Of a stretch of 64,000 nt of DNA, positions 1,670 to 43,060 are shown piece by piece (the first letter of the stretch is position 1; each line of letters starts with the position of its first letter). Origin of the DNA: Nereocystis luetkeana (Eukaryota > Sar > Phaeophyceae > Laminariales > Laminariaceae); contig JARUPZ010000017.1 in assembly GCA_031213475.1 (NCBI GenBank), positions 5,431,548-5,495,547 of the forward strand. The letters run 5' to 3'. Below the pieces are notes generated by a model. That model saw only the letters and a program-made list of their open reading frames with translations. It made no database searches and had not been told where the DNA came from. Position numbers and translations under genes: made by a program.

Positions 1670-1960
1670 CTATTGTATGATACTACCTTCTTCCTCACGA
1701 GCGTCAAGCCTTATCAATATCTCTCCGGAGGTAGGCCGTTGCCTAGGTGACCTAGCCCAGCACTCGCGCACGATGTCTGCGAGGTCGGCAGGGGCATCCG
1801 CAGGAATCGTGAGGCGCTCCCCTCTGAACACCACCCTTCTGTATATGTCGAAGGGAAGGGCCTCGTCCGCCCAGGGAACCTCCCTCGAAAGCACCTCCCA
1901 AGCCACGACGCCGAAGCTGTACACGTCGCTCGCATAAGAGCTTCCTTTTGAGTTGAGAAC
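1670..1960 (-). CDS. Exon: kinase C-lobe and stop codon
   Basis: 96 codons plus TAG, starting VLNSKGSSYASDVYSFGVVA. D of SDVYSFG (subdomain IX) and R of RQRPT (subdomain XI) are present, with the TKL-type WEVLSREVPW and ECWARSPRQRPT. The acceptor is CCTAG at 1965-1961. The protein ends about 20 residues after the kinase fold. No clear polyadenylation signal was identified. Confidence 0.9.
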   Translation of the reverse strand, partial: VLNSKGSSYASDVYSFGVVAWEVLSREVPWADEALPFDIYRRVVFRGERLTIPADAPADLADIVRECWARSPRQRPTSGEILIRLDAREEEGSIIQ

Positions 1961-4900
1961 CTAGGCAGGCCAATCCAGACGGAAAGAGGGCGAATACAAA
2001 ATTGAGGGGCTGTCGTTTCATCGACGGATGTCTGACGTAGGTTTGAAGCGAAGAACCACCAAGCACATGCAAAGTGCAGACAATTGAAGCAACTGGGTCT
2101 ACTGCGTGACAAAACGATGCCCCTGTTAACCTGCAGGTTCTGAGAGCATGTCAAGGCCTGCGGGAGATGTGTTCAGTGTATCGCACTGCTGGGCGAGGCA
2201 TTACGTCCACCGCCAACTAGTGAGATACCGACACCATCAAGCACATGCCATAGGTTCTATACACGAAAAGGTCCCGCCACCGCCACAACCTTTTATCCTG
2301 ACGGTATATGATGACGGTCGATCTACACTATAGACTCGGCAGCCACGACACGGTGGTTGACTGCTGCTTCAGACGATGTCAGGTTGGATAACTTGGTGGT
2401 TACGCGGAAGCCTGCATTGACGACCTCTTGAATATACGACTTCTTCAGCACCTTTACTTGAGAAGGCCCCTGTCGAACGGATCGCAGCAAACTGATCCCA
2501 TTTCTAACGCCGCTCGCACTCGTCACTACGTTTTCGGTGCTTTGTCGAATTCAAAATACCTCGGGAGCAGCCCATGCAAAGCTCATCATCTGCGTTGCGG
2601 TTCCTGAGTTAGACGTGTAACTGGCCAGACCCGTCGACTCACAGTGCTGCGCCCATCGCGAGGTACCAAAGTCCGCGATCTGGAATCAACGAAATGTGAA
2701 ACAACAAAAGACATTTCTCGGATGACGTGTGTTCTTGAGGCAGGAATGGATGCGATCGTGCGAAGGGGCGCGCGAGTAAAAACTACGACACGGACAGCCA
2801 ATATCTCACGGTTCAGCAAAGGTATGAACGTATATGTGCCACGCTTCGATCTCGTGCTGAAACCGACAAGGCGTAGACTGTTCTGGCTGTAGCAACCAAA
2901 CAATGTTTGTGGGACGCACGCCTTGTCTCACCTTTACCCTGCCATCTCCATCAAGGAGGATATTGGCGGACTTGAGGTCGCCGTGGACGGCGTTCTTGAT
3001 GTGCAAGAAGGTCATGCCAGTACAAACGTCTAGAATAATTTGCCTGGCGCGCGCTTCCGGAAGACGCCCTTCGGTGTGCCTCAGAAAGGAGCGAAGGTCA
3101 CCTCCAGTGAGTAGCTCCATGACAAGCACGAGTCGGTCCTCGCGAGAAGTGATCGCCCCATAGACGTTCACAGTGAAAGGGCTTCTCAGCCGGATCATCG
3201 CCTGCAACTCCAATAGAAGGGACGCGCGCTGGCGGTTCGCATCTTTTTTGTTGCCACCTGCTTTCGTTCTGTCGTCATCACAGCCGCCACCGCCGATGTC
3301 ACAACGGCCCATATCGACGTGCATCACCTGATCGTCCGCCGGTCGTGAGTCCCGGAGGCACCGGGGAGCGCAGACATGATAGATTATACCGTCAGACCGT
3401 GCCAATTCACGCGTTAAAGCAACCACATCAACAGTGGAAGACGTTCGCCCCTACCCACTCGTTGACGGCTCTACACACGCGCTGGGATAGGGCTAGCACC
3501 GCGTGAACAAAACGTTTCAGACTGAACAGCATCCCTGAATGAAGAAACGCCCGCAACATTACTTCAAAATTAATCTATTTTACTGGGTGTTTTCGGTGTA
3601 TATCTACAGTAGGTAGGACACGTCTCTGTTCACGGGGTTGCCCTTTGTTTTCCTCTAGGGGCAATGTTTGAGTAGTGGGTATAGAGAACCACGAGTGAGG
3701 AGCCTCAGCGGAAGGTAGGCGTACCGAAAGCATAGCGCGAATATTCTTCAAGAATATTCCTCTTCCCCTCAATCTTCTTTCTTACGAAAAAAAACCCTAC
3801 CCGTAACAACTGCACTCAGCTAGCCGTTCCTTCTATAAGCGGTGTTGGTTTCATGCAATGAGGTAGGAGCGGAGGGTTCTTGCGGTCGTGAACCGGACGG
3901 GTTCCGGATTACTTCCTGTCCTCCATCGTGGAGGTCGTAAGGCTTACTTTAGCGGCGGCGTTTCGTCCGTTGTAGTCGGCGATAAAGACAGAACCAAACC
4001 CCCCCTTCCCGAGGAGCTCGTCAGATATCGTCACGTGCTCTTCAGGGATTTCCACCCGGGTCAGGTTACGCTGGCGCCGAAGGCGACGAGCAGATGCCAT
4101 GGATTGCGCAGTCGACTGCCAATGTGATCGCGACACCACGGGGGGGAAACACGAGGAACCAGTGTGGTCAATTCAGACGAATGGGGGCCGACACACCAGT
4201 TCGCCCCCGAGGACACGAGAAGATGTCGTCCTAGATCGTAATGCCTTACACTTAACTCCCCTCCTCAAACAAATGAGCCCTACTACGTCGTGGTGCCGTC
4301 GTGATATGACCTGGACTACACATTCGTAGTTCGAAAACATCTACGTTACGACTAAGGTGATGAAAGCTTGCCGGGTCAAGATATTTCCCACGTGTACCTC
4401 CGCGGTCTGTGTCTGATGGGCCGGCTGCTCCGTCGCCCTCCCGTCAGCTTCGGTGGTATGGCTGTGCATGAACGCCCTGAGGTCGTGCCAATGCTTGCCC
4501 ACGGTTTGCCGATATTCCTCTTGGTTGACCACGGCGTGCACGTGTAAGCCGAGCTGCAAGATGTGGAGTAGGAACACCGACATTGTTCACATGTGAGCCA
4601 TACTAATACTGAACACGGTAAACGTCCCAGAGCAAACGGTACTGGTCGATTCCAGAATCACTTGAGGTTGCGGTTTCGGTTTGGCAGCTCTTGGTTTCCA
4701 CAGGCACCGCTCGTACAGTGTTTTGTCGGACCCTCGGGGAAGTATTTATGAGACTCTCTGTACAAAGCATAGTGCAAAGAGTCGGCTACGTTTTTGGATG
4801 TCAGCAGAAATATAGAATAGGCTGTCTGATGGCTCTCGGGTTTGTTTCCTTGCGATCACTCCCGCTCACGTGACTTGAACACGATATCATGCATACCCAA

Positions 4901-7900
4901 GTCATCAACAAATGTGTTTCTATCGCTAGCATGCAGCCGTAGAAAGAGCGAAGCGTACCACGCCAGACAGAATTGACGGGCACAAGGCACAGTCTACACG
5001 AATTCGAGTCTGGTCTACAGCCGTGAAATTGAAGTACGTCTAGTAAAAATAACGAATTTCCAACAGATCAGACCCTCAAGGCACTGGATAACAGGACGTC
5101 CATCAGCAGCTTCACCGGCTGCCCTAGAACGCGCGAACGAACTCACTTTAAGGTCAATAATTGCTCGGTCGATCACCGCTTCCGTCTCCGCCAGGCGCCT
5201 TTTGAACATCGTCGAGACAATGACTTGAGAAAGTCTATTCTTGCTCCTGTACGTTTTGATGAGTTCCACCATGTCCCCGACGGCCGTTTGCACGTCCTCG
5301 ATTAGCATTCGCTCCATGTCCCCATCGATGTCGTCGCCCTTCGTGTGACGCATTGCGGTATCCCACAGTGGGAAGAAGTGATGGAGATAAGTTAGTCCGT
5401 ACAATACATGGTCGTTGTTTGCGTTGTAAGACGTTACATTCCCGTTGTTGTCTACTCTGCCAGCGAATGGCCCTCGAAACATTTTTCCCCGGTTCGATAT
5501 TTCGGGCTGTTCAAGCATTTGGGTTTCAAAGACAGAAGCTATGCGTGTTGAGGTTGAGGCATTGGTTGCGACTCGGCGGATTGCAGAAGGCCGTTGACTA
5601 CACACAGCTTGAGACAAATCAATAGATATCTCGTTGGTACAGGTCGAACGTTGGATCTTGCCAGTTGGACACCAAGACAAATTGTTTTTAGGGGAAACCG
5701 GCGTTGCCCTTCGTTCTAAAGAACAACCCCCCGAGATGGGGCAGCAGGTGGCGAGATGCACGGCGACCGTCCTCTTCCCTACGTACTCGTAGGTAATATT
5801 TAGGTTATGGGATACAAAGCTGAGCAGACGCGTTCGTGACAATGTCGTTGTCGGCCAGGAAGCGTTGAGGAGAGGAAACCGCTCATGTGACGCTCCATTG
5901 TGAATGGTTCAGTTCCGGAAACGGTTCCGGCATCGTATAGATACTAGTCGGATGACAAACGAAGTTCCGACTTGACTACGAAGATATAGTTGTCTCCACT
6001 TGATATATGGCACGTTTCGTACCTAGCGGGTGTAAATGAGGGCAGTCGTGCAGGCCTACAGTTGGCATCTATATCGCGTGCATTGCCCTTCCTCTAGGAC
6101 GCGTTCCAGCGTGATGGTGGTTTCTAGATTTGGCGAGGCTGCTCGTACGATGATCCTCCCTTATGTGTTACCTCGCATAAAAAATATCGTTCGAGACAAT
6201 AAATTAATATGAACAATGTCACGGCCCAGGCGTTCAACGAGTCTACACAAGTGATTGACAATTCAACAATTTTTGGCGGTCCCTCAACTATAAAAGCCTG
6301 GCCTGAACGAGCAGATTTGGTTTTGGTTCAAACCGTGCAACTTCTGTGGTAGCAATGGTCTCTATTGCCCTTAGCCCTTAGACCCGATCTACAGTAGAGA
6401 CTGCACGCTCGAAGCCAACCTCGTCGTACTGACAGCACATCTTGACCGAGGCGCTACTTAACGTCGTTGAACCAGAAACGCTTTAGTCGAAACGAATGTG
6501 ACATATCCGAACCATCAGCGTGTGTTCTGGAACCAGTTCGTGCGATTTAACGTCGGCTGTTGGATAAACGTATCGACCTATTGGTGGGGGCCTCGAAATA
6601 CAAAACTGGTGGCCACTACCGTTCCACGCGTCTCTCCCTCTTACCACGTCAACCGCGGGCGAAACGTCCAGGGGAAACCTGACTGTTTCACTTATTCGTC
6701 AATCAATTCCCACCTCACTGCCTGGTCTTGTTCGGGACAAATATCGTCTCGACCTGTATGCTCTAGCTCGTCTTGCCGGGTAGGAACTCTTTATTCCGCA
6801 TGAGGTAGACCATATTTCATGGGTTTGGATATGTCCTATGCGGTCCAGCTCGACATGTGAGGGACGCCGTCCATGGTGTACATTTTTATTTCGTGACGTG
6901 TACCAGCGTGTGAGATGTCATATCGATACACTTACCTTTCCAAGCACCAGTGACGCTCGCTCTAGAACCATGATAACAAGACGGCACCGTTTTAGTCTTG
7001 ATTCCACTTCCGTGGCATTGCCTTGATCGTCCGAGACCATCTGCACCAAAATTGACACGAGCGTCGCCGCCTCGCAGACGCCAGGACAATGCGACTGCAT
7101 CGCTAACTTGCACGCTGCTTCCACTACCGCTTTTGCAACTTGAGATCCCTTGGGCGGGGACGAAGGATCGGCGCCTGCCGTTGTCCGGGTGGTTGATCCG
7201 ACGGCGATGGTTTCTATCCCCGTAGCGACCGGAAGGGCGTCTACGACTCCTTCTGCTTTGGTGTTAACCGCGGCGGCGGCTTGAGCACTAGATGTCGGCC
7301 GGTCCGTTTTTGGCGCAGATCGTTCAACCGCACGTGAAGCGTCAGTAATGACCACGGTGTTGGAGGAGTTGTTCAAATGGCTCTTAGCATTCCTCCGGTC
7401 AACCCTGGGCATGTGTCGTTCCGTCGCAGGTGAATCAACAGTAACGACCGCTGCGTGAACGGCATTGCGCAGAGAGGGCTGAAGTTCTTGCCGGTCGGTC
7501 CTCGGCGTACATCTTGTTCGCGAACCACCCGTAACGATCACGGTGTCCAGGGAGTTCCTGAGATGGGGTCTAGGCTTCGACTGTTCGACCTTCGACGTGG
7601 ATCGTCTCCCCTGGCGTGAAACAGTAGTAACTAGCGCCGGGGCAGACGATCTGCGCAAAGGGGCCATACTGGCCGTCGTCGACGAACCCTGTTCCGCCGC
7701 AAGCGACGCAGCAGTATCGACCGCCGTGTCGAAGGAGTTGTGCATGTGGGCCCTAGTCTCCCGCGTTTCGGTCCTCGGCGTAAACCGTTTTGACGAAAGT
7801 GACGCAGCTGTGATGATTGGTGTTCTGGAGGAGTTGTGTCGATGAACACTAGTATTTGACCGTTCAGCAATATGCGTGAATCGTTCTCTCGCAGGTGACG

Positions 7901-10900
7901 TATCAGAGCCGATCGCAGCGTCAGAAGAGTGGGCAAAATGGGCCCCAGTCTTTGACCGGTGGATCCTCGGTTTAGATCGCCCCGCCGGACGTGAACTATT
8001 TGTCATGGTCTCTGTGTCAGAGACTTTGCGCCGATGAGCCCTAGCCTTTGACGGGTGCGTCCTCTGCGTAGACCTTGCACGTGAAACAGCCGTAACGATA
8101 CCGGTGTCAGATAAGTTCCTCAAATGGACCCTAGTCTTCGACTGTTCGACCTTCGGCGTAGATCGTTTCGCCGGACGTGAAACAGTCGGAGCGAGCACCG
8201 TTTCAGAGAATCTGCTCAGATGGGTCATATTTGTCGTCCGCGGTGAACATTGTTCCGTCGAAAGTAACGCGGCAGTATCGATCTCTGTGTCGAGGGAGTG
8301 GCGCAGAGGGGTTCTAGTCTTCAGCCGAGGAGTCAGCGGCGCGACTCGTCCCCCCAAAATTGACGCCGTAGAGTCGATCGCTGTTTCAGACGAGTCACGC
8401 AGACGGGCCCCAGTGATTGGCCGGTGGGTCTTAGGGGTAGGTTGTTTCGTCGCACGTGACGTAGCGGTAACGACCTCTGTGCCAGAGACGTTGCGCAGAT
8501 GAGCCCCAGTCCCCGATCGGCTGGTTCTCGGCGTTGATCTTCCCACCGCGCGAGAAGCCGAAGGGACTGCTTCCGCGTTCGACGAGTTGGGCAATTTGGC
8601 CCTACCCCCATGTCCGTCTGTATTAGGTGAAGAACGTTCCGCTGGACCTGATGCAGCCCGGACGCCCGGTTTGTCCGAGGAATTGTGCGTATTCGTAGAA
8701 AGACCTGCGCGCTCTCGAGAAACTTCGCCAGTGACAGACGATGATGGTAGGCAGCATTCAACGTCTATCGAATCGTCGACTGTTGCCCGCTGAGAAAACG
8801 GAGCCACCTGGGCGTTGTTGTACTTTTTCTCGTTCCGCTTGTTACGCAGATGCACCGTTACCATACATACAGATACAGCCACTGTCCCTGACGCAAAAAT
8901 TGCTGCGATTATCGTCGAAGTATCGGACCCTCTGGTGTTTTCAGACCCAAGCGTAGTCACAGTGGGATCGAAAGTAGGGTTGGGAGAACTACTAGGCGTG
9001 TCGGGTTCTATTGGCGCTGCCGATGACACAGATGATGTAGTCGCCGGTGGTGGTGTTGGTGGTGGTGACGCCCGTGCGGGTGGGGTAGGTGGCGGCGATA
9101 TGGTTGACGGTGATGGTGGTAAGAGTTGAATTGGTGCGAGTGAGTTTGGCGCTGGAGGCGTTGGTGCAGGCAACATTGGGGCTAGTGGGCTTGATGCAGG
9201 TGATGTTGGTGCTGGCGACGTTGTTGCTGGTGTTGTTGGTGCGGGTGATATTGAGGCGCGTAACGTTGGTGCAGGTGATGTTGGTGCGGGTGTTGTTGGT
9301 GCCGGTGACGTTGGCGCGGGTGCGGTTGGTGCATGTGATGTTGATGCGGGTATTGTTGGGGCGGGTGATGTCGGTGCAGATGATGTTGGTGCGGGTGTTG
9401 TTGGTGCTAGTGACGTTGGTGGGGTTGGGGTTGGTGCAGGTGATGTTAGTGCAGGTGACGTCGGTGCGGGTGTTGTTGGTGCGGGTGAGGTTGGTGCAGG
9501 TGATGTTGGTGCAGGTGACGTCGGTGCGGGTGAAGTTGGTGCGGGTGAGGTTGGCGCAGGCGATGTTGGTGATGTTGGGGCGGGTGAAGTTGGTGCGGGT
9601 GAGGTTGGTGCGGGTGATGTTGGTGCAGGTGACGTCGGTGCGGGTGTTGTTGGTGCGGGTGAGGTTGGTGCGGGTGAGGTTGGTGCAGGTGATGTTGGTG
9701 CAGGTGACGTCGGTGCGGGTGAAGTTGGTGCGGGTGAGGTTGGCGCAGGCGATGTTGGTGATGTTGGGGCGGGTGAAGTTGGTGCGGGTGAGGTTGGTGC
9801 GGGTGATGTTGGTGCAGGTGACGTCGGTGCGGGTGTTGTTGGTGCGGGTGAGGTTGGTGCGGGTGAGGTTGGTGCAGGTGATGTTGGTGCAGGTGACGTC
9901 GGTGCGGGTGAAGTTGGTGCGGGTGAGGTTGGCGCAGGCGATGTTGGTGATGTTGGTGCGGGTGTTGTTGGTGCCGGTGAGGTTGGTGCGGATGAGGTAG
10001 GTGCAGGAGATGTTGGCGCGGGTGGGGATGGTGCGGGTGATGATGCAGGTGAGGTTGGTACCGATGCGGTTGGTGCCGGTGATATTGGTGCCGGTGATGT
10101 TGGTCCAGGTGAGTTTGGCGCCAACGACGTTGATGTCAACGATCTAGATGGGGATAATGGTGACACAGGCACCAGAGGTGTAGAGGAAGGCGTACGGGCG
10201 GGCGAGAGACTGGTAGTCCCGGGCGTTCCCGTAGAATTGGCAACGACACTTGGCTGTGCGGAGCTCGACGATGGGGAAGCTGTTGAAACTGGGGGCGACG
10301 ATGATGTCACAGACACCTGTCGAAAAACAGGCGCAAGCGTCTTAGGTACATCCGTAGGCTTTTGCGTTGTAGCCAGTATGACAAGCGTCTTTGTGTCGGA
10401 GGCTAGTACGGAAGTTAGAACATGCTTATCCAAAGTGCCCGGTGATGCTGTGGTCGGGGAAGTTGGTACCGGTGATCTGGTTGGCGCAGGAAGGGCGAGC
10501 GTACGCGTCGTGCGTAAACCCGTCGTTGTTGGTGCATGGCTAGCGTACGCGTTTGGACCAGACGGTAGCCCGATAATAGGTGAAGTCGTGAACGACGTAT
10601 TCACTGCTATCGTTACAGCGGCAAGGTCGTAGCTCGCGACCGTCGTTTCTCTCAAAGTGTTTGATGTCGTGCCGGCCAATATCATGCAACCGTTGTATCC
10701 TAGCGCAATGCCTTCAGGTGTACGATACGTAGTTGCGAAGCCCCCCCCCTGTTAGACCGGAATACAAATGGAGCGAGACGGGTGTGAGCGGCGTGCTCGG
10801 CGAAGTTAGCAAAGGCGGTGCTGGCGGTTGTGGTGTGTCTGGATTGGATATCACTCCCGTTGATCACCTGCCAACGCCAAAGCTCGATGCCAGTCTTGTC

Positions 10901-13900
10901 CAGCTTGACCGCAGTAACGCCATCGCTCCTGTATCTCGATTTTCCCCGTCGCCCTTTGGTCGTTCCAACAAGAAAAACGGATCCATGGTCTCCCACGGCT
11001 GCTGCCCGGAGAACGTCTGTACCCGTTGTGCCATTCTGCCAACAAAACCAGTTGTCACAACGGCGGGAACTTACTACGTAACATGGAGTAAACAATGCGC
11101 AAACACAGGCTTCTCACGCGCCCTGTATATACTACTCATGTCCTAATGCATTGCCCCTTCTTGGAAACATGAGGGTTCCTACATCATAAATGGCTATCTC
11201 AATCTGAGCAGATGTCTGTGACAAACGTAAGCCCCCCCCCGGTGGGGAAATACTACGCAGAGGGGGGAATAATATCGCCGTTTGCGACTGTTCGATTCAA
11301 TGGTGTATCCGACAATGCCGAAGTAAGAAAGCATCTTGCACAGGCCACACCACCCTAATCGAGAATCAGCTCTCTATTCTGGCACAACTCAGTAACGTAT
11401 TGATTCAGGTGTTCTTTGAGGGGAAACTCGCATTCATCACCTCGAAATATGAACGGTGGGCATGAGGAGGTGACAGATGTCCCGAACTGCCCAAGCCTCA
11501 AACTACATTATATTACTGCGCTGTTTTTCACTGCACATACACGAAGTATGTCTTGAGCCCGACGACCTATTCTTGAGTCAGCACTGCTTAGGCACAAAAA
11601 ATAAAAATATTTATATCCGGTTCTCCCCCGGAACAAGGCTAGGGCAGTGGCACAGGGACGAGCTGAGAACCATACCGCATGCAACACATACAATAGTACG
11701 ACGTGAGGAAATATATGCAATTTTTAGTACATACGGATATTATCCAGACCCTTTCTGAATTGCACCTGTCTTTTTGGAAAGAGAACTTGGGAATAGTGTG
11801 GAATCGATGGTATTGTGTAAATGTTATGTCATACCTCTGGGTTATCTTGACGCTTCCGCCAACATTGTAATATGTTGGTCAGCATGGTAATGCATACCAG
11901 GTACATTTTTTGTGATGCTCACGCCAATTAAGGTATCTCCCCCGTACTAACCCGAGCACTTCGGACAAACAAAAAAGGTGGAAAAAGCTCTCCACGAGGT
12001 ACATACGGCACAAACTGGACACAGACGCATGACACAAGGAACACAGCAGTGGGAAATGTACGCATGACACAAGGAACACAGCAGTGTGAGAAATGTTTAC
12101 TGAATTATTCACGATGCACCTGTGGCAGCAGCAGCAGCAGCAGCAGCAGCGTTGGGGTTGCATCTGTGGCCACATACGTATATCACACCACAGCAGAGCC
12201 TCCCAGCTCTACCTATCGCAGGGTAAGACATGAAAGCAACCCCAGAGTCAGAAGCAACAGCGCCGGAAGCCACAGCGCGAACAATTGCTGCACAAGCTTG
12301 AGTTTCTTGATGATTGGTTGGTGGGTGGTAGGCGCGTATACCTCTGTACTGATCATAGCACGCACCCTGCACTGCCCGTGTGCTGACGTTTGTGGGGTCT
12401 GGGTGGCGTGCGCATTACCAACGACCGTTGAAAGATAGCAGAAATTTACGGGTACGATCTCTGCCAGGATCGGACTCGCGTTTTCGTGTCCAAACCAGTG
12501 CATCGTCACCATTTGATCGTACCAAGAAAAATCCGAACTAGTTTTTTTTCTCGTGGAGCGCGACGCACTGGACGCACATGCACCGCACGGCATGAGAGGG
12601 AGGGCGATCGCAGCCTCCGAATGAACAACCAGCGATAACAGCAAACCGCACGCGCGTGGTGCCTCCGAACGCTGCTTGCCTGTGCTGTTGGGCGGTGGTT
12701 GTAACTTCGGGCTGTCTGATTTTTTTTTTTCATGTCAACCGCAGACGCCTGGTTCGTGCTCTGAGCAAGACACACGAAACATCGGAAACGACCGTTGGCG
12801 TATCAACCTTCAACACAAATGGTGCTTACGTTTCCGTCCAGGGTTAAGAGCGAGTCTGCCACACACACATAAATAAAAGTAGGAAATGCAGGCAGATGAT
12901 GGATTACGCATCGCAGGCTCCGATGAGCAACACTAGCCACAACAGCAAAGCGCAGAAAACACGTACACTGTTGTCTACTAGTGCATTTAGGCGAAAGCGT
13001 TGTAAAGCTGTTCTCAATATTGTATCTGCTGTGTGTCCGTCAGGAGACTGTGGGGGTAATGTTTCTCGTGTACTGCTGTCCTGCATATCAACATTGGTGT
13101 TACACAAATTGCATGCACTAATTTCCAAAACTGGGACATCGCCCTCATGTAGTAAGGACGTGCCGGCGTGAAGCGAGGCAGCGACCGTCCTACCGGTGAC
13201 CTGGGCGCGGTTCAGGAAACAAGCTGCGTAGGGTGGACCTTTGAACCCGTTACTACAGCCCGCTCGTGTCCAGGGTGGTTGTGCGTTCGTTTCGACCGGT
13301 GTAATTACGCTCGAACACGTTTTAAAAATATTAACGGAAGAAAGCACGTCATAGTTTACGAATAGGACCACCGAACACCGAACCGGGTTTTCTCCACTAA
13401 CCCGTGCGCTCGACGATTCAAGACATACATGCCAAGTCTTTACTACTTAAGGTGATTGATCCCTTGCCCGCACCTGCCACCTCCACACTTCTCTCCCTGT
13501 AGCATCCAGCTTGACTGCAGCGAAATCCCAACGCTCCCCGCCATTTGTTCCGTTCCACCCGCCAGACGTCATCCCCGCCAGCACTACGGACCCATCTGGT
13601 GCCATAGCCGCGGCCGTACAAGCATCGAACCCAACCATCTCACTCTATAAAAAAAAAAAAAAAATGTACGGTATCACGGGGTCGAGTACGCAATTGTTCA
13701 TTCCCCGAGCACGTCCAACAGCACTCGCAATCGTTGCTGTAGCGTTCATTCCTATGTCGAGATCATTCGATTCCGTCCCTCGGGTATCAAGCCGACTTGG
13801 GTATGCTACCACCAAAGGTGTAGGGGGACCGGTTGACGGACAGTACACGCATTAGCGGGGAAGGCCTTACCGTTGCTTCTGCAATTAATTGACTGTCTAA

Positions 13901-15690
13901 GCGGCTAATTGGTATTGATATCTTCGCGGCCAAGACACTACATTCAAGTTGTAATACCTGCCACCGCCAGAGCTCATTTCCATCGGCGTCAAGTCTGACG
14001 GCGGCGAAGTCGGCTCGTCCAACCGAAATTCCGCTCCAATTTCCGCACGAGTACCCAGCCAAAACGATGGAGTCGTCATTTCCCACAACCACAGCAGAAA
14101 TAGAGTCAAATGCTTCCGTTCCGTCCTGCCCGAAGAGAAAATAAAACAGGACCCGGGCGGACGATATCGTCAATGAATGGCTTATCTCATGCGTTAACAA
14201 GGCTGTACCTCGAAACGTCCAGCGCATGGTGGATATTCGTTCGATACACTCTATTCCGCACTTTATCTCAACCAATGTGGCCGCTACTCTTCACACGTTT
14301 ATATTTATTCCTCCCTTTGGTAGTTCCGACATTCGTTGTGGCCGTAGATTTCTACCTACTTAGTCAATTTTTCTAGGTATTGATTTTCCAGCATCACGAG
14401 TGTTTTCACGATCTCTTGGTGCCATCTCAGCCTTTATTTCCCTGTCACTGATCCTCGACAGACATATTTTCCAACTCCATAGATAGGCGCATTCCTTGCA
14501 GCGAAGTATGTATCGAAGCGGTGCTACTGCGCAAGCAATACGCGGTGAGCTGGGAAGAGCGTACTGATCACGCTATCCACGCTCTGCGTGGCGCCTCACC
14601 CAACTTCTGCTAACTGCAAGGTGTCGAACATGTTGACATGTGGTAGAATCAGTCGATGGAGACACCCTGTTTCCAGCTCAGTTCAAATGGTTGAAAAAGA
14701 GCTCACCTGCCACGTCCAGACCAAACCCCCATCGGCATCAAGTTTTATGGCGGCGAAGTCAGCCGAGCCCATACTTGCTTCGCCCCATACCCCGGTGGTC
14801 GACCCGGCCAGTATCACCGATCCATCCCCTGTCGTAGCCACGGAGTGAACTTTATCATCCGCGGCAGATCCACCCTGGGACAGGCAAGCCCCCCACGCAG
14901 AGTTGATTGTTAACGATGGAACTTGACGAAAATATTTGTTGGGTTCGAGGCGAGAATAATCATGACAGCGCGTGTTCGCGGGCAAGCCGGTAGGAGATAA
15001 AATCGACAAAAGGGCGACACAAACACGGTGATACCCCGGACGGGTACGCTCGTATACGTCATGACTTGTTCGTCACCTGCCATTCCCACAGCAAGATCCC
15101 GTCGGTGTCGAGCTTTACTGCTGAAAAATCGCTCGATTTTTCTTTTAAAGAACCTGCCAGGGCAACAGATCCATCCTCTCCTATCGCGGCGACAGCGCTC
15201 AGTATCGTGCCGCACGTCTCGCCCTGGCAACGCCAAGCAACAGGCAGGTCCAATGTGTCGTAAAGGACAACGAGGAAACACCAATCAACCTGCGAAGTTT
15301 ACCTGGAAGTCGTTAAAGCGCACCTAGATGTTTATTCACGCCTAGGAGTTCGTTCAGTCGAGTCAAGACTTGGCTGCACAATGTCAAATGGACCGCGTGC
15401 GGTGTGCGGTGTGATTGCAATGTGCGTCGATTTCCATGAGGTGACCGTTGCATGGACTCCTAAATATTTGTGTTGATGACGCATGGCCTTGGGCCCATAG
15501 TTCGGGCCGACATGTGCGGTACCTGCCAGCGCCACTGGAGAGAGCCATGCGCATCCAGTTTAGCTGCCATCCAGTGCCTTGAAGCGCTGCCCACGACGCT
15601 CGAGTTTATACCCGAGTAGCCTGCTAGAACGGATGAGCCGCTAAGCCCCACCGTCGTGCCCATCACGAAATCGCTTTCGAGTAACCCGCC
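1670..15690 (-). CDS. Beta-propeller / mucin-stalk receptor-like TKL protein kinase, 13-exon gene model, 5' end missing
   Basis: Proposed single gene, read on the minus strand, of at least about 2,041 codons. Exons: 15690-15523, 15223-15077, 14874-14707, 14125-13958, 13644-13474, 11035-10868, 10748-6936, 5338-5147, 4553-4398, 4115-3948, 3327-2932, 2679-2560, 1960-1670 (stop TAG at 1672-1670). All twelve introns have GT-AG ends and are phase 0. Predicted order: seven SBBP-like blades (residues about 1-377), Pro/Thr/Ser stalk (about 380-935), membrane span (about 941-964), cytoplasmic repeat tail (about 1010-1490), helical MLKL-like domain (about 1530-1700), protein kinase (about 1745-2035). 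The topology implies an extracellular sensor driving an intracellular Ser/Thr or dual-specificity kinase; no ligand can be read from the sequence. The signal peptide and start exon were not found. The alternative is two neighbouring genes split in the 1.6-kb intron at 6935-5339, but the helical domain continues across it. Confidence 0.72.
2560..2679 (-). CDS. Exon: kinase activation segment (DFG to APE)
   Basis: Exactly 40 codons, from IADFGTSRWAQ to FAWAAPE. It contains the magnesium-binding DFG and the APE that closes the activation loop, with many Ser and Thr residues between. Acceptor TTCCAG, donor GTATTT, phase 0. It does not stand out as a long open frame because it is a short internal exon. 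Confidence 0.88.
2932..3327 (-). CDS. Exon: kinase alpha-C to catalytic loop
   Basis: About 132 codons. It contains LLLELQAMIRLRSPFTVNVYG (alpha-C glutamate in LLLEL), the hinge LVLVMELLTGGDL, and the catalytic loop HGDLKSANILL with the catalytic Asp and the metal-binding Asn. HGD replaces HRD. The donor GTGAGA follows GDGRVK. I prefer the acceptor ATCAG at 3330-3328, which gives AAAK-VMHVDMG, a normal hydrophobic step after the lysine. A second phase-0 acceptor at 3453-3451 (GGTAG) would add 41 residues that do not resemble a kinase. Confidence 0.85.
3948..4115 (-). CDS. Exon: kinase glycine-rich loop and beta-3 lysine
   Basis: 56 codons. A basic juxtadomain segment (ARRLRRQRNL) leads to HVTISDELLGKGGFGSVFIA and then NGRNAAAK. 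GKGGFGSVF is the ATP-binding glycine loop and the last K of AAAK is the subdomain II lysine. Acceptor GGCAG, donor GTAAGC straight after the lysine codon, phase 0. Confidence 0.88.
4398..4553 (-). CDS. Exon: helical domain, C-terminal part and linker
   Basis: 52 codons starting LGLHVHAVVNQEEYRQT and running into a Ser/Thr/Gln-rich linker that ends TQTAE. Acceptor TTGCAG, donor GTACAC, phase 0. The first half completes the helix begun by ...AIIDLK in the previous exon; the second half leads to the kinase. Confidence 0.72.
5147..5338 (-). CDS. Exon: helical MLKL/HeLo-like domain, middle part
   Basis: 64 codons, GDDIDGDMERMLIEDVQTAV, then DMVELIKTYRSKNRLSQVIV and FKRRLAETEAVIDRAIIDLK. The pattern of a KTYRSKNRLSQ turn followed by KRRxxEAEAVIDRAI is one I associate with the four-helix N-terminal region of MLKL-like TKL kinases in stramenopiles; this is recall, not a database result. 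In MLKL-type proteins such a bundle regulates the adjacent kinase domain or mediates oligomerisation. Donor GTGAGT is strong. Confidence 0.72.
5339..6935 (-). other. 1.6-kb intron separating the two halves of the helical domain
   Basis: Donor GTAAGT at 6935-6930. The acceptor is AAG at 5341-5339, preceded by a CTAAC branch-point-like motif and a pyrimidine tract (5395-5365 on the minus strand). Reading across joins ...LVLGK to GDDIDGDMERM in phase 0. AAG is a weaker acceptor than CAG or TAG, so this is the least certain junction. No other coding exon was seen inside. The adjoining open frame above 5338 (to about 5842) is treated as intronic. Confidence 0.6.
6936..10748 (-). CDS. Giant exon: divergent blade 7, PT-rich stalk, membrane span, repeat tail, start of helical domain
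   Basis: 1,271 codons, phase 0 on both sides (acceptor TAACAG at a C-run, donor GTAAGT). The first 45 codons are a divergent seventh blade (NGCMILAGTTS, then SYDLAAVTI) that lacks the W-x-W-Q end. Next comes a Ser/Thr/Pro region with long (S/T)PAPT pentapeptide arrays, likely heavily O-glycosylated outside the cell. A hydrophobic segment, STIIAAIFASGTVAVSVCMV and on to TVHL (about 8918-8846), is followed by basic RNKRNEKK, so the stop-transfer charge places the C-terminal part in the cytoplasm. About sixteen basic, Ser/Thr-rich 32-residue repeats follow. The exon ends in a helical segment (VEAACKLAM..., VESRLKRCRLVIMVLERASL) that continues in the next exon. Confidence 0.82.
7280..8700 (-). 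repeat. Cytoplasmic tail of about sixteen 30-32 residue coding repeats
   Basis: Each unit follows the pattern SRAxxRSTPRT...RSKTxAHLRNSSDTxIxTAA. Sub-blocks look duplicated as groups, for example units with SxEQCSPRT and AEQGSSTTA followed in each case by a R..KRSTPKVEQSK or RRSTSKVEQSK unit. The tail is basic and rich in S-T-P and T-P sites, so it could be a phosphorylated scaffold between the membrane and the kinase; this role is inferred. Confidence 0.8.
9130..10110 (-). repeat. Coding minisatellite: 15-bp (S/T)PAPT units with a 189-bp higher-order repeat
   Basis: The stalk is built from 15-bp units coding SPAPT or TPAPT. On the plus strand the marker GATGTTGGTGATGTTGG recurs at about 9562, 9751 and 9940, exactly 189 bp (63 codons) apart, so blocks of about twelve units were duplicated as a whole. 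The repeat keeps all frames open, which creates long false reading frames on the plus strand. Copy number is probably variable between individuals. Confidence 0.9.
10868..11035 (-). CDS. Exon: propeller blade 6
   Basis: A 56-codon exon, NGTTGTDVLRAAAVGDHGSV at the start and TAVKLDKTGIELWRWQ at the end. Acceptor TTGGCAG, donor GTGATC, phase 0. The strand reads VFLVG instead of the usual VxLAG. A 119-bp intron separates it from the giant exon. Confidence 0.8.
12026..12095. repeat. 35-bp direct repeat, two copies
   Basis: The sequence beginning CGCATGACACAAGGAACACA occurs at 12026 and again at 12061, with small differences at the end of each copy. Confidence 0.85.
12126..12150. repeat. CAG trinucleotide microsatellite
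   Basis: About eight perfect CAG units inside the long intron of the receptor kinase gene. Other short CAG/CTG tracts occur near 18900, 46265, 58235 and 62760. Confidence 0.85.
13474..13644 (-). CDS. Exon: propeller blade 5
   Basis: A 57-codon exon with APDGSVVLAGMTSGGWNG and WDFAAVKLDATGREVWRWQ. The acceptor TATAG follows a run of fifteen or so T residues, an unusually strong polypyrimidine tract. Donor GTGCGG. It is followed by the longest intron of the gene, 2,438 bp. Confidence 0.8.
13958..14125 (-). CDS. Exon: propeller blade 4
   Basis: A 56-codon exon, DGTEAFDSISAVVVG at the start and ADFAAVRLDADGNELWRWQ at the end, with SIVLAGYSCGNWSG between. Acceptor GGGCAG, donor GTATTA, phase 0. 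The DGTEAFDS opening is typical of SBBP-type repeats in secreted propellers, as I recall the family. Confidence 0.8.
14707..14874 (-). CDS. Exon: propeller blade 3
   Basis: A 56-codon exon containing GDGSVILAGSTTGVW, then SADFAAIKLDADGGLVWTWQ, the clearest form of the repeat. Acceptor CCCAG, donor GTGAGC, phase 0 on both sides. The aspartates of the KLDADG turn and the terminal W-x-W-Q are intact. Confidence 0.8.
15077..15223 (-). CDS. Exon: propeller blade 2
   Basis: A 49-codon exon with the core SAVAAIGEDGSVALAGS and the end SAVKLDTDGILLWEWQ. It is bounded by acceptor GCCAG and donor GTGACG, phase 0 on both sides. It is seven codons shorter than its sisters, all lost from the loop between the LAG strand and the AVKLD strand. 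Confidence 0.75.
15523..15690 (-). CDS. Exon: propeller blade 1 (first exon recognised)
   Basis: A 56-codon exon with the SBBP-like pattern: glycine-rich start, SSVLAGYSG strand, WMAAKLDAHGSLQWRWQ end. The acceptor is AAAG at 15693-15691 and the donor GTACCG follows the CAG glutamine codon. The length matches the blade exons downstream. No ATG with a signal peptide could be joined upstream; the reading frame is closed by a TGA shortly above, so at least one 5' exon must exist if the model is right. Confidence 0.7.
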
Positions 15691-18600
15691 CTTTGGACGA
15701 AAACGAACCAAGCAAGTGCACTCAACGGAGAATCAAGGAGGCACGGGACCGGGATGGAACATGGAGCATGTGACCCTGGAGACCCAAATACAACCGTGGA
15801 ATCTATTGCCTCTGTGACAGGATCTGCCCATTACCTCAGAAGTGGAGGAATCTTGGATTCATTGGTGCTCCCATAGTACCATCATCTCTGATTTTGTCGA
15901 CTTCGCAAGCTGGGGAAGTATAGCAGCAAGCCGGGGAAGTATAAAAGAAGATCCCAACAGCACGAAACAGGATAATACTAGGCCCGTGACACCGGATAAA
16001 TCAAAACAATATTTGAAGGCACACGTATACGAAACGGACACTATCCATTGTCACCTACTGTCCCAGAAGGAAACCAAGAGTCAAAACGTCTGTTATGCGT
16101 AGAAATTCGTCGGGGATGGACCTATCAGAAGGACGGGTACGAGGGAGTGATGGCTCGAACTGCGTGGTGTATCTCACGGGTCTACTGATGAAAACTGGTA
16201 TGTTCGAAGTTATTTAGTTATCACCACTAGCTGTTTCACTGACTGTGACGATCATCGATGCGAGTGTCAAATATTGCGAGCTTCTCGCCTACCTGTAGAC
16301 TCCAGCTTTCAGTCATCATTTTCGCCTCCCACCCAGGCACCAGGGTGGCCTAGAGTTTCCAAAACGTCCCTGAAACAAATTGATAATCAACGGCAGGGTT
16401 CGTTCAATTCGCTAGGTATTGTCAATAGATACAAGACCACATCGACGGTTGTGAGAGGGTGGCCTCGCAGAAGCGATCGAGGTAGTGCCGAACACGCGTG
16501 TGAGTGAGGATAACGGTCAATCACACCCCCGAGGACACCACTAACGCAAAAAAGCAAGGGGCATCTTTCCTTCCAGCAGTAGGGGAGCTCCTGGACACCA
16601 TCCTGATACGCTAACACGAATGTCTTACCCCTGAACAACTCGAAGCGCGGTTGAAATCTTCTATGCACTATAATATATCAAGCCTGTCACTGAGTTGCCA
16701 GGAACATTGAACGTGACTTCAAACTCGCCACGCGTCCGCGAGTCCCCGTGACGGCCACCGCTTCGAGCAAAACCCGTGAAGTCTACACATAGGGTATTTT
16801 CTGAAACGTTTTGTCATCGTCGACCTTGTGACGAGGTTGTACGTACGTAGGGCCGCACGTCATCGTTGGGACGAAGAAAAACATGCTTTTTGTTTTTGTC
16901 GTGACTATCGGCCCCGTCAACATGGAACCCTCTTCCACTCACAGAACAAACATGTTAAAGCCCCATGCAAGCTGACATGGCTTGGTCAGTCTACACGACT
17001 GAATCTGTTGGGCCGATCAACAGGAACTCTTAGCTTCCCCGAGTGCGAGCACTTGGAGGGTAGCTCGGTCAAGAACGCCTTATCAACGAACACCGTCAGG
17101 ATAGAGGCTTCCGTACTGTGCGCAGTAGAGTCGTTTAGTGTGTTGCACACTTATAAAACACGGCAGGGACCCCGATTCCGCACGTATTTCGAAGCGTTTT
17201 ACTCATTCTTAATATGTACACGTCGTTGATTGTTTCGTTGTACTAACGTGATATACGCAAATACAAACACCCATACATATCAACCCCAATACCTGCCCTC
17301 GTGGAAACGTTGCCGCATACTGTAAATCGCGTTCAGGCGGCAAGGTGTAGCTCGTTAGCCTTGCTTCGCATTGGTGAAAAACGCAAGAAACACAGAATTA
17401 AAAAAGCATATATATCCCACGTTGGAAAGTACGTACATACCTGGCACGTGCAGTTGATGTGAATGCTGACGCCATCCATGGGATGCATATAATTTCAAAT
17501 CAAAACGGCCAGTCAGTGAAAAGTTTAGCGCTAAGATGTCAATTGTCTCGGTCTACCCAGTTTCGTCAACAGGATGGTCAGAGGTCGAGCTCTATCAATA
17601 GTTGTGGACTCCATACCTCGATTCATCAGACTTCCCGAAGAAAGATATCAAGATTTCTTCTTGTATATTTTCCATTCCCTGTCGAAGAGAACCGTGGACC
17701 GAAAATTGTGCTTTTCACCCCCCAGAAACGCCCACACCCTTGACGGCCAAACACACCGACAACCGTATTTTTCTTAGGGCTTGGACCAATCGATTGCCAT
17801 CTGAAAATCTGTGGCAACTCCGGGACTGCCGATGTACCAGACCTGGCAGATACAGAATGATGAATATTGCGAGTACCATTCATTGCCAAACATGGCAGAT
17901 ACAGCCTGTTGAGGCAGAAAAAAATATTTGGCGAATACAGTCGTTGTACTTGTTGTGATAGGTAGCACAACGGGCAGTTCTTCGAAAACATACGCGTGGT
18001 GGAACCGAGTTCGACTATACAGTCAGCAGGGAATTCCGCTGTTTTCGCAATCTGCTTGGATACGTATGTTTTAGCTTCTTTCACTACGTATTGCAAAAAA
18101 TCAGAGGGAATTCGGTCACAGACTGCCGAACGGCAAACACCAGAACGACAGCTTGAAGTAAGAACCCAGTTGCGTAATATATTACAGTGGTAGAGTATTT
18201 CGCTCATACTATATAAAAGCAGCATAATAAGCTGTCGGACTTGAGATCTACACGTAGTGCGTACATCATCTATCGTGTTCGAAGGTCTCAATGTCCAGCA
18301 TTTTTTTCCCCCCAGTGGTTTTGCTCATTGTTTAGTTTTTATGCAGAGTGTGGCATCGAAACATTCACCACCTAGGTGTCGATCGCTGCGTACCGTGTTT
18401 GTGCGCTCAATCGAGACCTTGCTCCTCGTCATTTTTTCCCCCTAGAAAAAAACCCCTACGAGTACGAGCACACACTCGGTGAGCTTCGAACCCCCAGCTA
18501 GACTTTCGGAGGGACGATATGGACCTACCACTCGATCGGAGATGCAATTGTATCTCTCCTCGTGGTGCGCCACTCTACCCCCTGCCTCGACGGCTGTGCC

Positions 18601-19397
18601 GAGGGCGGCCTCGGGCGTGCGTGACGTGCTGCTGCCGTCGCTACTGCCCCTACTCGCCGTACTATGTGGCACTAACGGCTCCGAGTTGAACGTCGGTACG
18701 CCCTCGGCCCAATACGCGTACGCACAGAGCCACAGGCAAGCATTATCCCGCCGCGGCGAAGCCCCGTGTGTAGACCCGTATACTACTCGCCTACTATTAA
18801 CAACCAATACAAATGAAAAACGAACCCGACCCCTAACTGTTGACCCCAACCAAATCGAACAAAAAATTACGAGAAAAACACCAACAACAACAACAACAGC
18901 AGCAGCACAAGCGGGGTGGCGGGGACGCGGGTCATCGAGGCGCGCATCCCCGATGGGAGCTCAGGCTAGGGCGGCCGTCGAGAAAGGACAAGAAAACAAA
19001 GAAGTAGGAGAAATCGGGATATATTTAACGCACGTGTTTTGATGTAAATGGAGCATCGGAGGCGGCGCGAGGCGCAGACAAGAAGCAAAGAAGGCACCAA
19101 CGGTCTAAGCGCCCGGTGTGAGCGGTCAGGTACGCGGCTCCGACGCGAGCCCCCGATCGTGGATCAATTCACCAGGCCGTGAGAGTCTTGAGGGGATCCA
19201 AAACAATAATTATTAAGACGAAAAGAAGGGGCGGAGAGGATAGCGGGTGTACGCGTGCCCCAAAAGGCAAAGGAACCTCATACTAAGGAGTCACGTGGCG
19301 TGCGACGCAGGGTGGCTTCAGCAACTGGGAACGAGTCTAATGTGTGAAGCGAAGCAGGAGGGAAGGAGGAATGGCTGGTCAAAATGGGTCGACGGAG
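15691..19397. other. No gene recognised; upstream side of the receptor kinase gene
   Basis: The missing 5' exon or exons should lie here or beyond. A minus-strand hydrophobic stretch at 16041-15859 (LVLSCFVLLGSSFILP) has no ATG in frame and was not used. A TATATAAAAG box at about 18209 (plus) has no convincing frame after it. Open frames at 17626-18291 (minus), 18442-18849 (minus) and 18479-19042 (plus) are unrecognised and lack clear starts. A short AAC/AGC microsatellite lies at about 18886-18908. Confidence 0.4.
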
Positions 19398-21621
<2,224 letters not shown>

Positions 21622-40534: not shown

Positions 40535-43060
40535 CATGTGTGTGTTCTTCACATTTAACCGTTCTTTCGACCCGTCGACATCCAGCACAACCAGTGTCCG
40601 TGCCGATTCTCCAATCCTAGAAGAGGTACAAGGTATGTGGTCACAAAGCTACGCCAGAGAGATACTACGTTGCCACGTGTGCAAGTATGCACTGCAGTGG
40701 GCAATGCAAAGCCATGTCATCATACCTTATAGGACAGGCACGACATACGCAATCTATGAAATAGTGAAACGAAAAGAAACAATCAAAGAGAAAACAAAAA
40801 CAAAGTAGACAAATCAATAGAGAAAAAGAAAAAAAAATGAAAGCAAAAACTAGGAGAAACAATCTCTCGTGCCCCCCACCCGCAGGCGAGGTGGCCAACA
40901 CTTGAAAAAAACGACCTGGAAAAAAAAACAAATAAACACCACTGCTTGTAAACAGAGTAAGACAAAGAACCAAGAGAAAAAAAAAAATAACAAAGTTTTA
41001 AGGGGGAATAACAGGCAGACCAAAGCCCAAAGCACCTTCCAGGTGGCGGCAGCAGTTTGTGGTACGAGTAGTATAGCCAGGTTCTCCCTGCTAATCCACC
41101 TGGTACCTTGCTACCCAGACTGCCGTCTCCGCCCTGCGTTCGTCAACTATGCCCAGCCCCTTGGCATCAGACAATACGAAACGAGCAGAGCAGGTTCGTG
41201 ATCCAACCACGCCACACGGCTCCTTCAGTGCGGCTTATCAATCAGAAAAGGAAGAGAAAAATAATAAAATGAAAATCATGGAGAGTCAGCGCAAGGAAGA
41301 AAAAAACAAAACAAAAAGAGAAGACAAGGCAATACCACGTTCGAACGGGCTGCACCAGTTGGTAGCACTAGTAGTATGGTCATGTTCTACTTCCTAGTCG
41401 ACTTGGTGCCTTGCTACCCTGTCTGCCATCTCCTTCCTACTTTCGTCTACCGCCGTTTCCCTTCTACCCCTCCTATTCCCCTCCCTCTCCGCATTCCCTT
41501 GGTCGGGCTTTCTGCCACTTCTCCTGTTGCCCCCTCCACCCCCGTTCCCTTGGACACCATCCACGGCGGATGCGCGGCGCTGCCTACTCATCTCAGCCTC
41601 AACCTCGTGCCACCTCACCATGAACCGTTCGGCTGCTTCAAGGATCGCCCGGTACCACTTCCCCGCCTTTTTGGCTTCAGTAGACCACAACGCGGTCTCA
41701 ACTCCAAACATCAAGTGGGCAACTTCCGTTGACCCTTCGGTGGCTCGGAACTCCCTAAGGTCTTCGACCATGCACCTATGCCAAGTCTTGCACTGTCCGC
41801 CTGGTCTCGGGTTCTCCCCACCAGCTATCGTCCCGAATATCATCCGACTGGGTAATCGCTCCTTGCTTTGCCGTGCCACGCGCCCCGCAAAGAAGAGCCG
41901 CCGTTTACGAATGGTCGTCTCGATGCTCTCGCAACGTGTCATCTTGAGGGCCTTCGCGTACGAGAGGGTGGCATGGTCAGTACGAAGTCGGCGCTGGAAG
42001 CCAATGACTCGTAACAGGACTTGGTGGTGAGCCGTTTGAAGCTTGGCAAAGTGTTCCGCTCTTAGGGTCCACGTCACACACCCGTACAGCAGGGTCCCAA
42101 TCACCTCGGCCTTCAGCATTTGGGCTTTAAGGCCAAGGGGGGCGGTCGTCCTATCATACAACTCCGGGCCAAACCGTTTGAGGCATGCTCGCATGAGGCG
42201 GATCCGTCGGTCGATTTCGAGCGAGAGCGTAGCGTTTTCGTGGATAACGCCGCCTAGGTATAAGAACTGGGTGGTCTGCTTATACCTCTGGCCTCACGCT
42301 TCGATGACGAGCGGTGGTGCGAGGGGTGTCCGGTCTGGTGTTTGTAGGACCATTGTCTCAGTCTTCTTTTCCGACACCGTGAGGCCTGCTGCTTCGAAGA
42401 CAGTCACGATGACGGTCATCATTTTTGCGAGCCCTTCAGCCGACTTCGAGACAATTCCTGCATCATCGGCGTACAACATGCCCCATACAGACCTTCGCAC
42501 GCACGCCATTGGCCCCTCCTTCCCTGTTCGAACTACTCCAGCTTCCCTGAGTTAGACCAAATCCCTTACAATGGCTTCGCCTTGGCTGAAGCGTACCAGT
42601 ACGACGTGTAACACAGCAGCGAGGAATACGTTAAACAGTAACGGTGATAGTACACATCCTTGCCGCAGCCCCTGCGTGACATCAAACCATTCCGAGAGCT
42701 CGAAGTCATCAGTACGCACGCGAGCCCGCATGCCATCGTGTTAATTACTGATAATTCTCAGCATTTTGGTTGGTACGCCAAAGCGTGTGAGTACCTTCCA
42801 TAACAGCTCTCGGTCGACAGAGTCGTACGCTTTCTGCAGATCAATGAAGCACACGTATAAGGGGATTTTCCTCTGTCGTCCGAGCTCTTGCAGCCGGCGC
42901 ACGACGGGCAAGATATTAATCGTTGATCGTGCGGGGCGGAAGCCGCACTGTTCCTCAGGGAGTAGTTCTTCGGTCTCGCAGTAGTTGCTGAGGCGGGACG
43001 CGACGATTTTCAACAACACTTTGCCTGCGTGGGCAATACCTGGTACCAGGTACCAGGTAG
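40535..43060 (-). mobile_element. Non-LTR retrotransposon (LINE), 5'-truncated, with 3' UTR and tail
   Basis: The best copy of the main repeat family. The coding part (43060-41394) encodes a reverse transcriptase lacking its N-terminus. The 3' UTR runs from 41393 to about 40705, and a tail unit (about 40690-40535) ends GTGAAGAACACACACATGC. The 5' break lies at three overlapping TACC(A/T)GGTA words (43037-43059), after which an unrelated LINE tail unit begins in the other orientation. This copy anchors the order of motifs used to recognise the other fragments. Confidence 0.88.
41394..43060 (-). pseudogene. LINE reverse transcriptase, one frame with three stop codons
   Basis: Motifs in order: LLPEEQCGFRPARST (fingers), CFIDLQKAYDSVDRELLW (first catalytic Asp region), [35 protein letters not shown] (the YADD active site), PLVIEA, LGGVIHENATLSLEIDRRIR, and the C-terminal LLYGCVTWTLRAEHFAKLQT block common to non-LTR elements, then a Gly/Arg-rich end and ADRVARHQVD. 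The frame is uninterrupted except for stops at 42743-42741 (TAA), 42554-42552 (TAA) and 42296-42294 (TGA). No endonuclease domain is present because the 5' part is missing. Confidence 0.88.

Follow-up and report, generated by a model that had tools for sequence, protein, structure and literature searches.

The minus strand of the window (the whole stretch of 64,000 nucleotides of Nereocystis luetkeana DNA analysed here) very probably carries a single protein-coding gene for a single-pass receptor kinase. In the predicted product a propeller, a Pro/Thr stalk, a membrane span, a juxtamembrane tail, a helical domain and a kinase follow one another. We favour a single gene because the annotated relatives of the protein are single chains and because other loci of the same genome hold the corresponding exons in order. 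With such chain relatives in other brown algae and such paralogous loci, chance is excluded as the origin of the architecture.

Structure of the gene

The gene model runs from 16319 to 1670 on the minus strand and comprises 14 coding exons that encode 2052 residues and end in one terminal stop. All 13 introns are GT-AG and in phase 0, and the exon frames are open throughout. The exons are, in order: a 9-residue start exon; six single-blade exons (147-171 bases); an exon of 3813 bases; H2 and H3; and four kinase exons (Table 1). The 3813-base exon has blade 7 at its head and continues with the stalk, the membrane span, the repeat tail and half of the helical domain. A preliminary description of this DNA had named blades, a PT stalk, a span, a repeat tail, a helical block and a kinase on one strand with phase-0 joins; all of them are present on the minus strand, with GT-AG introns. 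Its gene span of 1670..15690 was wrong at the 5′ end, where a conserved start exon is located at 16319-16293.

It should be noted that the splice sites were picked by reading frame and by comparison with relatives, and that single boundaries may be off. Scored with crude generic splice matrices, only 7 donors and 3 acceptors, out of 13 each, reach the thresholds, and several sites rest on frame and relatives because their generic matrix scores are weak. Least certain are the H3 donor and the H2 and K1 acceptors.

Table 1. Features of the predicted receptor kinase gene (window positions)
Feature	Position	Strand	Basis
Start exon MMTESWSLQ, inferred translation start and first propeller strand	16293..16319	-	conserved start in 6/8 own-genome loci with upstream letters and in P0001, P0002, P0008, P0009; in-frame TAG upstream
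Blade 1 exon, 56 aa	15523..15690	-	gene model
Blade 2 exon, 49 aa	15077..15223	-	gene model
Blade 3 exon, 56 aa	14707..14874	-	gene model
Blade 4 exon, 56 aa	13958..14125	-	gene model
Blade 5 exon, 57 aa	13474..13644	-	gene model
Blade 6 exon, 56 aa	10868..11035	-	gene model
Large exon: blade 7, Pro/Thr stalk, span, repeat tail, first helical half	6936..10748	-	gene model
15-nt tandem repeat, 62.9 copies, coding for most of the Pro/Thr stalk	9191..10112	.	tandem-repeat array
Stretch with membrane span TIIAAIFASGTVAVSVCMV, then basic flank	8769..8948	-	hydrophobicity and charge
Helical domain, first half (H1)	6936..7190	-	locus reading and helical query
Helical domain, second half (H2)	5147..5338	-	locus reading and helical query
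Linker exon H3, LGLHVH...	4392..4553	-	donor choice uncertain
Kinase exon 1 (K1): glycine loop GKGGFGSV, AAAK lysine	3948..4115	-	motif reading
Kinase exon 2: helix-C Glu, HGDLKSAN catalytic loop (non-RD)	2932..3327	-	motif reading and Pfam
Kinase exon 3: DFG, APE	2560..2679	-	motif reading
Kinase exon 4 and stop codon	1670..1960	-	motif reading and Pfam

Elsewhere in the window, a long GA/CT dinucleotide tract lies upstream of the receptor gene at about 19370-19565. A 299-residue open frame at 41394-42293 on the minus strand is, by its motif, a putative remnant of a non-LTR retrotransposon reverse transcriptase. Rfam returned nothing over the whole window.

Single-chain relatives in other brown algae

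A search with the blades, in which the 7994 candidates sharing most words were scored, gave 44 matches, ten of which are brown algal by their names ('Undpi1' being taken as Undaria pinnatifida). Seven of these ten (P0003-P0008 and P0010) have kinase Pfam domains in the same chain as the propeller and combine propeller, span, helical domain and kinase; their blade-query E-values range from 2.8e-54 to 2.3e-79, and their blades are 39-45% identical. P0009 ends inside its kinase, and the remaining 36 of the 44 matches list no kinase domain. As annotated, the kinase of P0005 is cut short, and P0006, P0007 and P0010 are without the first part of the ring. Like the window protein, P0010 and the relatives from Undaria, Scytosiphon, Ascophyllum and Pylaiella have a propeller, a Pro/Thr/Ser-rich stalk, a single span, a helical domain and an HGD kinase. 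By its gene model, which puts the ring, the span, the helical domain and a TKL-type kinase into a single chain, the window gene belongs with the brown algal propeller receptor kinases (P0003-P0010). The helical motif starts at residue 582-751 in the relatives versus about 1560 in the window chain, because the stalk and tail of the latter are far longer. In P0001 and P0002, both from Ectocarpus, an XK-related domain (PF09815, E 8e-11 in P0001) takes the place of the kinase behind the same propeller and stalk.

The seven annotated brown algal chains, together with ordered exons in 7 of 9 own-genome loci, uphold the preliminary description in its reading of one gene for a receptor-type kinase with a propeller ectodomain. 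Its suggestion of an undescribed receptor class has to be given up, as annotated relatives already exist in five genera (Undaria, Scytosiphon, Ascophyllum, Pylaiella and Ectocarpus) and one of them, P0010, is named 'Transmembrane receptor kinase [Ectocarpus siliculosus]' in GenBank. Judged from sequence, the propeller-kinase design is real and is not a new class. Denoeud et al. reportedly described, in 2024, brown algal receptor kinases with a beta-propeller ectodomain. The open-licence literature that was searched gave no description of the signal-less start, the one-blade-per-exon layout or the XK-related fusion.

Sister loci in the same genome

In the Nereocystis genome (465 Mb) the blade query matches 74 places and the helical query 56. 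By grouping, there are roughly fifteen blade-bearing loci, six of which lie in about 360 kb of contig C17, all on the same strand. Nine further loci were read, and in seven of them (g3-g9) blades, H2 and K1-K4 follow one another in order. In another, L050, the stretch read covers blades, H1, H2 and a portion of K1. Seven blade exons were found in 6 of the 7 complete loci, g8 showing five; the H1 of g9 was found by the helical query, and H3 was found only in g3.

The closest paralogue, g2 (L032, G000:C17:5506000-5515999), encodes seven blades and a Pro/Thr stalk; the frame of the stalk closes with no evident span in it, and no helical or kinase exon was detected in about 28 kb downstream. A further copy in the cluster, g6 (L040/L041), looks broken: one of its blades contains a stop, and its kinase exon 2 is split in two. 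A helical-domain gene at G000:C16:148387-155567 and nine small contigs give ten equal-score matches, and no blade match is listed there.

A propeller of bacterial kind

The ring of the window gene consists of seven blades, six of them on exons of their own. In a structure model of the relative P0003, in which the kinase part has low confidence and the N-terminal 36 residues are unmodelled, 27 strands extend over residues 39-420; 31 of the 38 ten-residue blocks have a pLDDT of 72-91 and the other seven 59-67. The best PDB match of the propeller, at 25% identity, is CylK, both by fold (E 1.9e-24) and by profile (E 6e-50). These comparisons show, at the level of a predicted fold, a propeller of the bacterial CylK/delta-60 kind. 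CylK and the bacterial delta-60/SBBP proteins have the propeller fold in common with the window protein; CylK, however, is an enzyme, and none of the bacterial matches of the blade search is a chain with span and kinase.

The blades had been called SBBP-type. As a Pfam family this was rejected, since no match to PF06739 passes the curated cut-off: none was found in the genome, the ten window frames or the eight relatives scanned. DUF5122 gives weak, sub-threshold matches (E 0.067 in window frames; E 0.0023 at best in relatives). As a statement of relationship the label holds, through the fold match to CylK and through the bacterial homologues found by the blade query, which carry SBBP or DUF5122.

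Membrane topology

The window protein contains a single strong hydrophobic span, TIIAAIFASGTVAVSVCMV, flanked by charges of +1/-2 on its N-terminal and +5/-1 on its C-terminal side. Each of the eight kinase-type relatives of alignment A1, like the window protein, has one span that scores above 2, and across these nine there are 4-7 basic residues in the 15 positions after the span and 0-1 before it. P0005, P0009 and P0010 have additional, weaker hydrophobic segments (scores 1.64-1.81).

N-glycosylation sequons are in excess in the blades, both in the own genome (35 vs. 13.3 in shuffles, z 6.5, 53 blades) and in six other algal kinase types (40 vs. 15.1, z 7.2, 42 blades), these z values overstating independence as the blades are related to each other. 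The seven blades of the window alone have 4 sequons (z 2.1). No such excess is seen in the XK-type blades of P0001 (z -0.3), in the cytosolic part of six relatives (z 0.6) or in four whole bacterial homologues (z -1.6 to 0.1). Together, the sequons in the blades and the charge bias at the span support a predicted topology with the propeller outside the cell and the kinase inside. Of the 'secreted-type' sensor in the preliminary description, the outside location thus stands, by sequons, stalk and charge bias, but no signal peptide was found.

The repeat tail after the span is 553 residues long and has a 32-residue period (autocorrelation 0.236 vs. a mean of 0.084). Of the phosphosite motifs, [ST]P[KR] is enriched in the tail (7 vs. 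1.4), and [ST]P.[KR], [ST]P and R..[ST] show no enrichment there.

Translation start and signal peptide

Translation appears to begin in the propeller's own first strand, with MATEVWRWQ or a variant of it. A first coding exon of this form occurs in six of the eight loci with upstream letters, namely: the window, g2, g3, g4, g5 and g6; it was not found in g7 and g9. The window start, MMTESWSLQ, fits the pattern MxTExWx[WL]Q, which is found in these six loci and in two of the eight annotated kinase types (P0008 and P0009). Across the annotated starts of the ten algal relatives the motif is present in P0001, P0002, P0008 and P0009, and a longer version in P0004; P0003 and P0005 begin with other sequence, and P0006, P0007 and P0010 are cut at the N-terminus as annotated. 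No signal peptide was found near the MATE-type start. Type I receptors normally carry a signal peptide, and its absence is odd for such a receptor.

It is a serious possibility, if short of an even one, that an upstream exon encoding a cleavable signal peptide has been missed and that the MATE... exon is not the first. P0045, the LRR receptor kinase described below, starts with a clear hydrophobic signal of the sort that is normal in type I receptors. A missed exon would also fit g7 and g9, the other starts of P0003 and P0005, and the frame ahead of the Met in g3-g6, which is open over the stretch shown. Upstream hydrophobic Met-starts do exist: the window has three, at 3.2 and 2.2 kb from blade 1, of which two form a nested pair in a single microsatellite, and g2 has one, at 2.6 kb; but none was found in the other six of the eight loci (2.8-4 kb scanned), and the strongest window candidate for a signal peptide, at 18947, was rejected as a CTG/TTG microsatellite. 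Conservation, moreover, starts at the Met in the six own loci, with the four annotated relatives beginning there as well, and the residues before it are unconserved except among close copies. Also against an upstream exon are the in-frame TAG between the common TTTCAG and the start Met in the window and g2, and the pN/pS of 1.46 for the pre-Met stretch of g4 vs. g5 (21 codons; 2 synonymous and 7 nonsynonymous changes).

Tentatively, and as a possible rather than a probable reading, we propose that this receptor kinase family exports a large folded ectodomain without a cleavable signal peptide. The N-terminal Met-strand would close the seven-bladed ring, and the single span would act as a reverse signal anchor that brings some 950 residues of the window protein through the membrane. 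Were such signal-less export true, the propeller would be competent for export and transferable as a sensor, since it also occurs fused to an XK-related membrane protein.

Integrity of the window gene

Comparison of g4 with g5 gives pN/pS values of 0.07-0.65 in the eight exons compared, indicating purifying selection. Between the window and g2 the values are 0.37-0.61 for blades 1-5 and 0.96 for blade 6. The last value, the very long stalk repeat of the window copy and the broken look of its neighbours g2 (no kinase found) and g6 (blade stop, split kinase exon 2) would suit a decaying copy in a tandem cluster from which no working receptor is made; we nevertheless regard decay as improbable, given 14 open exons with one terminal stop, intact catalytic motifs and the pN/pS of blades 1-5. 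That the window holds two genes, one for a propeller-stalk protein, secreted or anchored, and another downstream for the kinase, is highly improbable, for although g2 does have blades and stalk with no kinase exon detected after them, the seven annotated relatives are single chains, the exon series is in order at 7 of the 9 other own-genome loci and all 13 inferred introns are in phase 0.

Helical domain and kinase

The helical region is contiguous across the H1/H2 exon boundary in the eight A1 relatives and in P0045, and the structure model of the domain is all-helical with modest confidence. These results agree with the earlier proposal that the two helical halves form one stretch. Sequence comparison of the domain with the PDB gave no credible match (best E 0.019, to a ribosomal protein), and Foldseek with the helical model gave none at E up to 0.001, the CC-R domain of NRG1.1 ranking 7 at E 0.67. 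The resemblance to MLKL, which had been put forward for this domain, is weak both by Pfam (MLKL_N) and by fold, and the likeness is suggestive only. MLKL, a pseudokinase without a membrane span, has a helical bundle ahead of a TKL-type kinase, as the window protein is predicted to have; the latter differs in its intact catalytic motifs and in its span.

All kinase motifs are present by reading, namely: GKGGFGSV, AAAK (the VAIK Lys), LLLELQ (helix-C Glu), HGDLKSAN, DFG and APE. Pfam PK_Tyr_Ser-Thr matches in the kinase exons at E 6e-22 and 3e-15, and the best kinase match by profile is plant CTR1 (6e-48). We thus predict a complete and active TKL-type kinase. In the catalytic loop, HGDLKSAN, the Arg before the Asp is replaced, making the kinase of the non-RD type, and HGD was found in every kinase of the family whose catalytic exon was read. 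Plant non-RD kinases are often immune receptors. By analogy, a ligand-sensing role, perhaps in immunity or at the cell wall, is favoured for the window protein.

An apparently stable ring and a proposed exchange of sensors

Blades 1-6 are each encoded on one phase-0 exon, most often of 56 residues. Repeat units on separate exons of the same phase are also a property of the exon-shuffled ROCO and NB-TPR receptors of brown algae; according to PMC11378527, the LRR exons of the ROCO genes have a comparable layout and are in phase 2. Blade exon shuffling, suggested by this likeness, was tried as the main process and found no support, since the blades cluster by slot, though some of it may have occurred. 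In a tree of 102 blades there are 31 label changes vs. 69.8 in shuffles (0 of 200 as low), the minimum being 6. This tree is poorly resolved, with few columns and many open forks; it leaves out g6, L050, P0002, P0009 and P0010, g8_1 and g8_2 were not recovered, and g3_2 was only partly recovered. Mixed-position pairs occur, one of them starred (P0001_7/P0004_6) and two not (P0004_1/P0008_5 and P0007_1/P0007_4). On this sequence evidence the ring seems to be an old, stable unit and not one whose blades have been freely shuffled.

The helical and kinase module of the propeller receptors recurs in P0045, an LRR receptor kinase that has an evident signal peptide; there the helical region is 41% identical over 91% of the query region. 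P0045 was, apart from the query itself, all that the helical homologue search returned, and since that search missed known relatives, counts from it are low. P0045 and the Ectocarpus LRR receptor kinases (PMC3268121) resemble the window protein in having a single span and a kinase; their ectodomain is made of LRRs, not a propeller, and P0045 has its signal peptide in addition. With the helical-kinase module common to both types, the sensor looks like a swapped part, and one cytosolic module seems to have received different sensors.

Proposed mechanism and significance

In the mechanism that we envisage, the propeller would stand outside the cell on a glycosylated stalk and bind a cell-wall or microbial ligand. 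Ligand binding would bring receptor chains together, the helical domain might transmit or restrain the signal, and the kinase would phosphorylate partners. As the least certain step, export of the propeller may need no cleavable signal peptide, with the single span serving as reverse signal anchor.

Brown algae are said to have evolved receptor kinases independently (PMC8307928). In the window gene and some fifteen sister loci, the sensor would be a bacterial-type propeller, coupled to a cytosolic module that an LRR receptor uses as well. If the signal peptide is truly absent, the question arises how so large a folded ring reaches the cell surface.
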